A DNA stretch of 64,000 nucleotides, taken from NCBI RefSeq assembly GCF_018219455.1, contig NZ_CP056122.1, positions 1,426,001 to 1,490,000 of the forward strand, given 5' to 3'. The notes beneath the pieces were generated by a model. That model was not told the origin of the DNA and did no database searches. It saw nothing but the letters and a program-made list of their open reading frames with translations. Shown here one piece after another: positions 1,854 through 3,772 of this stretch; within the stretch, counting starts at the first letter, position 1, and every line of letters begins with the position of its first letter. This stretch comes from Moritella sp. 5. Its GTDB lineage: Bacteria > Pseudomonadota > Gammaproteobacteria > Enterobacterales > Moritellaceae. A program made the position numbers and the translations under genes.

Positions 1854-1930
1854 CGCGGGATGGAGCAGTTTGGTAGCTCGTCGGGCTCATAACCCGAAGG
1901 TCGTTGGTTCAAATCCGGCTCCCGCAACCA
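1854..1930 (+). tRNA. tRNA-fMet(CAT), copy 1
   Basis: 77-nt initiator tRNA. It has the C1/A72 acceptor mismatch (CGCGGGA...TCCCGCA), GGG/CCC anticodon-stem pairs (TCGGGCTCATAACCCGA) and encoded CCA. T-stem version GTTGG/CCGGC. Confidence 0.97.
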
Positions 1931-1959
1931 TTTCTATTACCAATTAATTTGGTATATGT

Positions 1960-2035
1960 GGGTCCTTAGCTCAGTTGGGAGAGCATCGCCCTTACAAGGC
2001 GAGGGTCACTGGTTCAAGCCCAGTAGGACCCACCA
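1960..2035 (+). tRNA. tRNA-Val(TAC), copy 1
   Basis: 76-nt cloverleaf. Acceptor GGGTCCT/AGGACCC, anticodon loop CTTACAA, T-loop TTCAAGC, encoded CCA. All six Val copies look identical by eye. Confidence 0.97.
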
Positions 2036-2079
2036 CATTTAATTACGAACCCTACGTAAGCTAAATGAAAACATATTGT

Positions 2080-2156
2080 CGCGGGATGGAGCAGTTTGGT
2101 AGCTCGTCGGGCTCATAACCCGAAGGTCGTTGGTTCAAATCCGGCTCCCGCAACCA
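2080..2156 (+). tRNA. tRNA-fMet(CAT), copy 2
   Basis: Identical to copy 1, with initiator C1/A72 mismatch and three G-C pairs in the anticodon stem. The spacers around this fMet-Val pair differ from those of the later 327-bp units. Confidence 0.97.
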
Positions 2157-2187
2157 ATTTGTTCGCTATATAAATAGCAAAATTTGT

Positions 2188-2263
2188 GGGTCCTTAGCTC
2201 AGTTGGGAGAGCATCGCCCTTACAAGGCGAGGGTCACTGGTTCAAGCCCAGTAGGACCCACCA
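2188..2263 (+). tRNA. tRNA-Val(TAC), copy 2
   Basis: 76-nt tRNA with anticodon TAC, same sequence as copy 1, encoded CCA. Confidence 0.97.
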
Positions 2264-2328
2264 CAAATTATTAAGTTTGGTTATATATTTTAAAAATAAA
2301 TAACGAGACTTCATAAAGAAAGTATTTG

Positions 2329-2404
2329 GGGCTGTTAGCTCAGTTGGTAGAGCAGTTGACTTTTAATCAATTGGTCGAAGGTTCAAATCCTTCACAGCCC
2401 ACCA
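2329..2404 (+). tRNA. tRNA-Lys(TTT), copy 1
   Basis: 76-nt tRNA. Acceptor GGGCTGT/ACAGCCC, anticodon loop CTTTTAA, T-loop TTCAAAT, encoded CCA. First gene of the first repeat unit. Confidence 0.97.
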
Positions 2405-2441
2405 CTTTCTTTAGTTCTGATAAAAGAACACACAGCATTGT

Positions 2442-2518
2442 CGCGGGATGGAGCAGTTTGGTAGCTCGTCGGGCTCATAACCCGAAGGTCGTTGGTTCAA
2501 ATCCGGCTCCCGCAACCA
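2442..2518 (+). tRNA. tRNA-fMet(CAT), copy 3
   Basis: 77-nt initiator tRNA with the copy 1 T-stem (GTTGG/CCGGC). Confidence 0.97.
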
Positions 2519-2558
2519 GTTATAACGATAGATACAACTATCGCTAAATAAATATCGT

Positions 2559-2634
2559 GGGTCCTTAGCTCAGTTGGGAGAGCATCGCCCTTACAAGGCG
2601 AGGGTCACTGGTTCAAGCCCAGTAGGACCCACCA
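2559..2634 (+). tRNA. tRNA-Val(TAC), copy 3
   Basis: 76-nt tRNA, anticodon TAC, same sequence as the other Val copies. Confidence 0.97.
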
Positions 2635-2656
2635 CTATTTATAAAGAAAGAATTTG

Positions 2657-2732
2657 GGGCTGTTAGCTCAGTTGGTAGAGCAGTTGACTTTTAATCAATT
2701 GGTCGAAGGTTCAAATCCTTCACAGCCCACCA
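2657..2732 (+). tRNA. tRNA-Lys(TTT), copy 2
   Basis: 76-nt tRNA identical to Lys copy 1, starting the second repeat unit. Confidence 0.97.
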
Positions 2733-2768
2733 CTTTCTTTAGTTCTAATAAAGAACACACAGCATTGT

Positions 2769-2845
2769 CGCGGGATGGAGCAGTTTGGTAGCTCGTCGGG
2801 CTCATAACCCGAAGGTCGTAGGTTCAAATCCTGCTCCCGCAACCA
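2769..2845 (+). tRNA. tRNA-fMet(CAT), copy 4 (variant T-stem)
   Basis: 77-nt initiator tRNA differing from copies 1-3 at 2820 (A for T) and 2832 (T for G). The two positions pair with each other in the T-stem (GTAGG/CCTGC), so the stem is kept and a T-G wobble becomes A-T. Confidence 0.97.
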
Positions 2846-2885
2846 GTTATAACGATAGATACAACTATCGCTAAATAAATATCGT

Positions 2886-2961
2886 GGGTCCTTAGCTCAG
2901 TTGGGAGAGCATCGCCCTTACAAGGCGAGGGTCACTGGTTCAAGCCCAGTAGGACCCACCA
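2886..2961 (+). tRNA. tRNA-Val(TAC), copy 4
   Basis: 76-nt tRNA, anticodon TAC, exactly 327 bp after copy 3. Confidence 0.97.
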
Positions 2962-2983
2962 CTATTTATAAAGAAAGAATTTG

Positions 2984-3059
2984 GGGCTGTTAGCTCAGTT
3001 GGTAGAGCAGTTGACTTTTAATCAATTGGTCGAAGGTTCAAATCCTTCACAGCCCACCA
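2984..3059 (+). tRNA. tRNA-Lys(TTT), copy 3
   Basis: 76-nt tRNA, anticodon TTT, 327 bp after Lys copy 2. Confidence 0.97.
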
Positions 3060-3095
3060 CTTTCTTTAGTTCTAATAAAGAACACACAGCATTGT

Positions 3096-3172
3096 CGCGG
3101 GATGGAGCAGTTTGGTAGCTCGTCGGGCTCATAACCCGAAGGTCGTAGGTTCAAATCCTGCTCCCGCAACCA
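3096..3172 (+). tRNA. tRNA-fMet(CAT), copy 5 (variant T-stem)
   Basis: Same variant as copy 4 (GTAGG/CCTGC T-stem), 327 bp downstream of it. Confidence 0.97.
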
Positions 3173-3212
3173 GTTATAACGATAGATACAACTATCGCTA
3201 AATAAATATCGT

Positions 3213-3288
3213 GGGTCCTTAGCTCAGTTGGGAGAGCATCGCCCTTACAAGGCGAGGGTCACTGGTTCAAGCCCAGTAGGACCCACCA
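3213..3288 (+). tRNA. tRNA-Val(TAC), copy 5
   Basis: 76-nt tRNA, anticodon TAC, 327 bp after copy 4. Confidence 0.97.
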
Positions 3289-3310
3289 CTATTTATAAAG
3301 AAAGAATTTG

Positions 3311-3386
3311 GGGCTGTTAGCTCAGTTGGTAGAGCAGTTGACTTTTAATCAATTGGTCGAAGGTTCAAATCCTTCACAGCCCACCA
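3311..3386 (+). tRNA. tRNA-Lys(TTT), copy 4
   Basis: 76-nt tRNA, anticodon TTT, 327 bp after copy 3. Confidence 0.97.
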
Positions 3387-3422
3387 CTTTCTTTAGTTCT
3401 AATAAAGAACACACAGCATTGT

Positions 3423-3499
3423 CGCGGGATGGAGCAGTTTGGTAGCTCGTCGGGCTCATAACCCGAAGGTCGTAGGTTCAAATCCTGCTCCCGCAACCA
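3423..3499 (+). tRNA. tRNA-fMet(CAT), copy 6 (variant T-stem)
   Basis: Same variant as copies 4 and 5, 327 bp after copy 5. Confidence 0.97.
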
Positions 3500-3539
3500 G
3501 TTATAACGATAGATACAACTATCGCTAAATAAATATCGT

Positions 3540-3615
3540 GGGTCCTTAGCTCAGTTGGGAGAGCATCGCCCTTACAAGGCGAGGGTCACTGGTTCAAGCC
3601 CAGTAGGACCCACCA
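3540..3615 (+). tRNA. tRNA-Val(TAC), copy 6
   Basis: 76-nt tRNA, anticodon TAC. The repeat periodicity ends right after it. Confidence 0.97.
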
Positions 3616-3696
3616 CTTATTATTGTTGTTATATGTCCTAACATAAACAGCGAAACTTCTATTTAAGGAATCCTTAATAGAAGCAGTAAAAGTAAA

Positions 3697-3772
3697 GGGC
3701 TGTTAGCTCAGTTGGTAGAGCAGTTGACTTTTAATCAATTGGTCGAAGGTTCAAATCCTTCACAGCCCACCA
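3697..3772 (+). tRNA. tRNA-Lys(TTT), copy 5, last of the array
   Basis: 76-nt tRNA, anticodon TTT. It follows an 81-nt spacer unlike those in the repeat units; that spacer has its own hairpin (AAGGAATCCTT). The terminator lies 45 nt further on. Confidence 0.97.

Follow-up and report, generated by a model that had tools for sequence, protein, structure and literature searches.

The operon that lies beside pal-cpoB and nadA in Escherichia coli K-12, lysT-valT-lysW-valZ-lysYZQ, consists of seven genes for tRNA-Lys(UUU) and tRNA-Val(UAC) on one strand and is without an initiator tRNA gene. According to the accessible part of one report, its transcript is processed by RNase P, proceeding from the 3' end (PMC11143913), and the available text of a second indicates that the operon is deletable only with a complementing plasmid (PMC11480407). 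The initiator tRNA of E. coli is multicopy and is encoded by metZWV and metY. Gain of tRNA gene copies via tandem duplication has been described for P. fluorescens SBW25, where, in the excerpt available, the duplications span 45-290 kb and arose in laboratory populations (PMC7661048).

We analysed a stretch of 64,000 nucleotides from Moritella sp. 5 (the window; its genome is G000 below, and other genomes carry similar handles where they must be told apart). Positions 1854-3772 of its + strand hold 17 tRNA genes, namely six initiator fMet, six Val(UAC) and five Lys(UUU), in the order (fMet-Val)x2, (Lys-fMet-Val)x4, Lys according to ARAGORN (Table 1). The Rfam model RF00005 recovered the same 17 genes without their CCA ends, and TRF reported a period of 327 bp in 4.0 copies with 99% matches at 2313-3617. 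The three programs agree with the original prediction of a 17-gene array of this content built of 327-bp units. Its further claim that three units are identical including their spacers is also correct: the last three Lys-fMet-Val blocks match each other throughout, the 785 bases at 2506-3290 recur unchanged at 2833-3617, and 2506-3617 repeats itself at a lag of 327. In the first block the Lys-fMet spacer carries one substitution and one indel relative to these, the fMet T-stem is different as well, and the Val-Lys spacer preceding the block is 65 nt long vs. 22 nt at the later units. A C1-A72 mismatch and three G-C pairs in the anticodon stem are the marks of an initiator tRNA, and all six tRNA-Met(CAU) genes have both the mismatch and the GGG/CCC anticodon stem.

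Table 1. Features of the tRNA array and its neighbours, in window coordinates
Feature	Position	Strand	Basis and remarks
pal (peptidoglycan-associated lipoprotein)	248..832	+	NCBIfam TIGR02802 above cut-off
cpoB/ybgF (Tol-Pal system)	845..1630	+	NCBIfam TIGR02795 above cut-off
Predicted promoter: TTGCAG (1751-1756), 16-bp spacer, TATTAT (1773-1778), discriminator AGCCGCC (1779-1785)	1751..1785	+	conservation
tRNA-fMet 1	1854..1930	+	ARAGORN; 51:63 = U-G
tRNA-Val(UAC) 1	1960..2035	+	ARAGORN
tRNA-fMet 2	2080..2156	+	ARAGORN; 51:63 = U-G
tRNA-Val(UAC) 2	2188..2263	+	ARAGORN
Lys-fMet-Val unit 1	2329..2634	+	ARAGORN; fMet 51:63 = U-G
Lys-fMet-Val unit 2	2657..2961	+	ARAGORN; fMet 51:63 = A-U
Lys-fMet-Val unit 3	2984..3288	+	ARAGORN; identical to unit 2
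Lys-fMet-Val unit 4	3311..3615	+	ARAGORN; identical to units 2 and 3
Last tRNA-Lys(UUU)	3697..3772	+	ARAGORN
Intrinsic terminator: GCCTCGCT-ATT-AGCGAGGC-TTTTTT	3823..3847	+	direct reading
nadA (quinolinate synthase)	3944..4972	+	NCBIfam TIGR00550 above cut-off

Like the E. coli lysT operon, the Moritella array (array a) lies between cpoB and nadA on their strand and combines tRNA-Lys(UUU) with tRNA-Val(UAC). It is not made of Lys and Val genes only, as in E. coli, and because six fMet genes are interleaved it was classed as a variant and not as the same operon. At 19 pal loci of other families (L012-L030), read with a 1.5-kb flank that cuts longer arrays, tRNA-Lys was found in 16, no tRNA in three and fMet in none; Val stands beside Lys at L015 and L028, at the latter on the strand opposite pal. 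On its position and gene content, the array is best described as a genus-wide Moritella variant of the known cpoB-nadA tRNA operon, and its novelty is modest. We also observed that G038, from another genus of the order, has 11 tRNA-Lys genes at exactly 136-bp spacing adjoining pal (G038:C1:1131317-1132749), an amplification of this site that involves only Lys. A phage origin was considered as well and was rejected because the matches are tRNA-sized only: the 17 phage records reach 90-99% identity at best, over no more than 25% of the query, and none covers 80%.

The linkage of fMet to Val marks the genus. Of 295 genomes sampled from the order, 11 have an fMet gene followed after 82-112 bases by Val, these being all 11 Moritella in the sample and none of the 284 others; in a class sample of 369 genomes the only one is the window's own (the two samples share three further genomes). 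In a sample of 148 genomes that included 10 Moritella, nine have fMet following Lys, and all nine are Moritella. These scans use exact patterns and miss diverged or wider-spaced pairs. An earlier scan of an 84,980-species collection returned six stretches, again all Moritella; its Val arm was written too narrowly, so that it would miss Val genes like those of E. coli. Interleaving of initiators with elongator genes occurs in at least one further genus. G038 carries nine fMet and six tRNA-Asn genes on one strand (G038:C1:1089000-1093000, L125), mostly alternating in 246-bp units, and this array resembles that of Moritella in that its repeated unit combines initiator and elongator genes, but its partner is tRNA-Asn and some 38 kb separate it from the Lys array next to pal in the same genome. 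We therefore rejected interleaved initiators as a Moritella-only trait and call only the Val/Lys partnership at this site Moritella-specific. The two arrays together suggest that an initiator has been captured by an elongator array more than once. Multiple initiators in tandem are also found in G144, G074 and G132 (nine, seven and seven genes at 170-189-bp spacing), but these tandems, unlike the Moritella array, have no elongator gene between copies. Array a is not an fMet-only tandem of the metZWV type, and unlike E. coli the window's genome has no separate one; its nine fMet genes are six in array a, two in a second array (array b) and one at a metY-like site. Our literature search, by title and mostly of open-access papers, listed none on this array.

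A single promoter and a single terminator had been proposed for the whole array, and both are conserved in relatives. The predicted promoter is identical in all 11 aligned Moritella except for two spacer positions, and array b has a comparable one, TTGCAT-17-TAATAT-CTGCC(T/A)CC, in 8 of 8. G+C-rich discriminators like that of array a are typical of stable-RNA promoters under stringent control. A consensus promoter scan of 1500-4200 found no + strand site and two - strand sites, fewer than in shuffles (2 vs. 4.7), and because it lists no + strand site it is mute on internal promoters and on the promoter named here. All five relatives read to the array end retain the terminator behind array a in slightly altered form; the scanner lists that of the window only on the - strand because the A/T flanks pair too. 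Together with the spacer hairpins and the Lys leader-trailer stem described below, these signals would be compatible with a single precursor that RNase P cleaves.

The fold of one array unit is more stable than those of its shuffles (z -3.6), as expected of tRNAs alone, and the sequences between the genes were examined separately. The pairing and hairpin tests cover arrays a and b, with three G005 pieces (b12, b23 and y20) and the lone-fMet loci left out; on reading, b23 corresponds to the metY-like locus and y20 comes from the 3' part of array a. The first leader-trailer test counted contiguous pairs beginning no further than three bases from the ends of the tRNA. It gave no signal for fMet (2.90 vs. 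2.95 re-paired), a mean for Lys of 2.65 that is above re-paired controls (2.26, 0/300) but below letter shuffles (3.76, 300/300), and 4.40 for Val (re-paired 3.87, 9/300; shuffled 3.33, 0/300). Because the Lys helix begins after a larger bulge, duplex energy was adopted as a second test, chosen after the result of the first. Across a small internal loop the Lys duplex reaches -6.92 kcal/mol (40 distinct pairs), vs. -5.75 when re-paired, -1.65 with trailers of the other tRNA types and -3.74 when shuffled (0/300 each). The fMet duplex is weaker than that of Lys (-3.33; re-paired -2.78, 1/300; shuffled -2.70, 5/300), and Val is no better than letter shuffles (-2.59 vs. -2.65, 179/300). The Lys signal extends to 37 distinct pairs of other sequence from other families (-4.42 vs. 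-2.55 re-paired and -2.78 shuffled, 0/300 each), and for the genes of the E. coli lysT operon the values lie between +0.6 and -6.1. Such pairing is not peculiar to the array, because the non-Lys genes of G000 pair too when pooled (-3.11 vs. -1.93 re-paired, 0/200), clearly so for Arg(ACG) and Gly(GCC) and not for Val, Asn, Phe, Leu(UAA) or Trp. Most spacers fold with z below -1 (Val-Lys 37/37, fMet-Val 26/27, Val-fMet 6/6 and Lys-fMet 12/24, all from related sequences); the scores apply to spacers of 25-110 nt, which leaves out the 22-nt Val-Lys spacers of the window array. These spacer structures may separate neighbouring tRNAs and guide RNase P.

Array b lies at G000:C1:4895034-4895956 (L062 1535-2460) and reads Val-Lys-fMet-Val-Lys-fMet-Val-Lys. 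A conserved promoter-like sequence and a terminator of its own accompany it, and the ORFs downstream resemble, by eye, a copper/cation efflux system. The lone metY-like fMet gene (G000:C1:800541) follows tRNA-Leu(GAG), an arrangement like that of E. coli, in which metY comes after leuU. T-stem pair 51:63 of the array fMet genes is either U-G or A-U, the first three fMet genes of the window being U-G and the last three A-U; both fMet genes of array b in G000 are A-U. G008 and G002 have A-U in both arrays (array a of G002 is cut), G009 and G010 have U-G in both, G004 is mixed, and G003 is mixed with U-G first and A-U after it. Because G003 shows the same order, inheritance could account for the mixed state of G000. 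In a tree built from pal-cpoB and the 1 kb preceding it, G009 clusters with G000 and G005 (support 100/100), so the uniform U-G of G009 departs from its nearest relatives. Among seven genomes, arrays a and b of one genome are on the whole more similar than re-matched ones: of the 5040 possible pairings, five reach the observed best spacer identity, 24 the observed number of identical spacers and 240 the observed T-stem allele agreement; these pairings are not independent, as the seven genomes are related. Identical spacers in different arrays make up 13 of 179 same-genome pairs vs. 2 of 1285 pairs between genomes, and the identical a/b pairs come from G003, G008 and G010. On these spacer comparisons, ectopic exchange between the arrays is supported in those three genomes. 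In G000, arrays a and b have no identical spacer. Its array a matches its own array b with a mean best identity of 0.69, which falls within the 0.68-0.75 obtained with array b of other genomes. Exchange in the window's own genome thus has only the shared A-U form as a hint, and this form could be inherited. Separately, the metY-like fMet gene of JT01 (G005:C23:138919, L094) has A-U at 51:63, and the six others read are U-G in five and U-A in one (G008); the A-U form in JT01 suggests, on this one base pair, an exchange with the arrays.

A wider proposal would see array a as half of a tRNA system of two loci that homogenises itself and has a conserved RNA architecture. It joins four elements, which we consider possible as a set but hold only tentatively: each Lys tRNA would be bracketed by a leader-trailer helix, mostly of 6-10 pairs and maintained through compensating changes; hairpins would occupy most other spacers, so that added units would still be cut correctly; the U-G and A-U isoforms would be traded between the two loci; and initiator capture would recur, with Val-Lys in Moritella and with Asn in G038.

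The number of genes in array a varies between species, from 11 in G003 through 13 in G009, 15 in G010 and in G004 (PE36) and 16 in G008 to 17 in G000. One Val is missing from array a of G009, and in G003 a cut-down Val remnant, its 3' part, lies between fMet and Lys (G003:C1:90979-91105, L073) and represents a decayed unit. Identical units, copy changes between the six species and this remnant all agree with unequal crossover, which the original prediction had offered as one origin of the repeats, and array a seems, from these comparisons, to lengthen and shorten through ordinary recombination. As in SBW25, tandem duplication would raise tRNA dosage, but the Moritella units are of 0.3 kb and are found in nature. 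Whether the expansion is neutral, i.e. units come and go by recombination with no benefit of dosage, was weighed against the same data. Order and copy number do differ between species and a gene remnant is present, but fMet stays at 8-9 in all six well-resolved genomes despite spacer turnover, and array b keeps two fMet genes in eight of the nine genomes read (the draft G005 shows one; array b of G001 and G006 is outside the sample), so that we find neutrality quite improbable.

The original prediction had also warned that the repeats could collapse in short-read assemblies, and this is what the drafts display. In five of the six draft Moritella (G002, G005, G007, G001 and G006) the cpoB contig ends inside the array or its first gene, with no complete tRNA left in array a of G001 and a cut fMet in that of G007, and these five show two to seven fMet genes. 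The count of 327-bp units in the window could itself be such an artefact, with the true number lower or higher, since an exact lag-327 repeat over 2506-3617 is beyond counting by short reads. We judge this very unlikely: the G000 assembly is one 4.99-Mb contig, and arrays of 11-16 genes recur in four genomes assembled into 1-3 contigs and in the draft PE36, whose six array-a fMet genes lie in non-identical units. Such an artefact could alter the number of units, not the existence of the array.

Counted by exact anticodon arm, fMet genes number nine in G000 and eight in each of the other genomes in 1-3 contigs (G003, G008, G009 and G010), nine in the draft G004 (Moritella sp. PE36), and seven in G002, five in G005 and in G007, and two in G001 and in G006, all drafts; tRNA counts from draft Moritella genomes can thus be underestimates. 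The remark that six initiator genes in one locus is high holds for the number itself but not as an exception. At least nine fMet genes occur in four of 295 genomes of the order (by eye, with drafts counting low), G000 and G004 with nine and G038 and G144 with ten, which rules out a record initiator dosage in G000. As a share of tRNA genes, over the best 150 candidates per genome (of 413 in G000, giving 142 Rfam matches), fMet makes up 9/142 in G000, 8/113 to 8/138 in four other Moritella, 10/113 in G144 and 10/141 in G038. G000 tends to amplify its tRNA genes in general, with further tandems of Asn (11), Gly (10), Tyr (6) and Arg(ACG) (6). The 11 tRNA-Asn genes are at G000:C1:1642000-1646000 (L064), many at about 123-bp spacing, and the 10 tRNA-Gly genes at G000:C1:4523000-4526500 (L065), several at 138-bp spacing. 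The window also has a second tRNA cluster, Pro-Arg-His-Leu-Pro (44461-44991), whose His-Leu-Pro run recurs at G000:C1:101573-101890.

The original prediction had raised very fast translation initiation in a cold-adapted fast grower as one possible benefit of the copies, and these counts bear on the idea that selection for high initiator dosage, for quick growth in the cold, drove the array. The eight or nine copies in the six well-resolved Moritella are in its favour, as is the observation that in E. coli the loss of initiator copies is harmful in rich medium and helpful in poor, at least in the part of PMC9981150 that cites Samhita 2014. But other members of the order reach 8-10 copies with the fMet-only tandems or the Asn-fMet array, the fMet share is ordinary among the best 150 candidates per genome, and the other tandems of G000 show that initiators are not alone in being amplified; we regard such selection as unlikely. 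The array most likely just provides extra tRNA.

The reading that we prefer, and hold to be very probably correct, is that array a is the Moritella form of the lysT-type operon, with the initiator linked to it, resized by recombination, transcribed as one precursor and coupling the dosage of its tRNAs. In or before the Moritella ancestor, an initiator gene would have joined the Val and Lys genes of the cpoB-nadA operon and would also have become linked to the second Val-Lys array. Recombination between units (unequal crossover and deletion) may then have altered array length, and in several species sequence common to both arrays may have come from ectopic recombination or gene conversion. The conserved promoter of stable-RNA type would give one precursor of about 2.1 kb that ends at the single intrinsic terminator, from which RNase P and 3' nucleases would release the 17 tRNAs. 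The array would thereby couple the dosage of initiator, Val(UAC) and Lys(UUU) tRNAs.

Read in this manner, the array is an example of an initiator gene captured by an elongator operon and then co-amplified, a capture that would tie the supply of start tRNA to that of the Val and Lys tRNAs. With their differing arrays and two initiator isoforms, the 11 Moritella genomes form a natural series in which the rates of growth, shrinkage and homogenisation of tRNA arrays may be followed, and the same series would suit testing what one initiator gene copy is worth.
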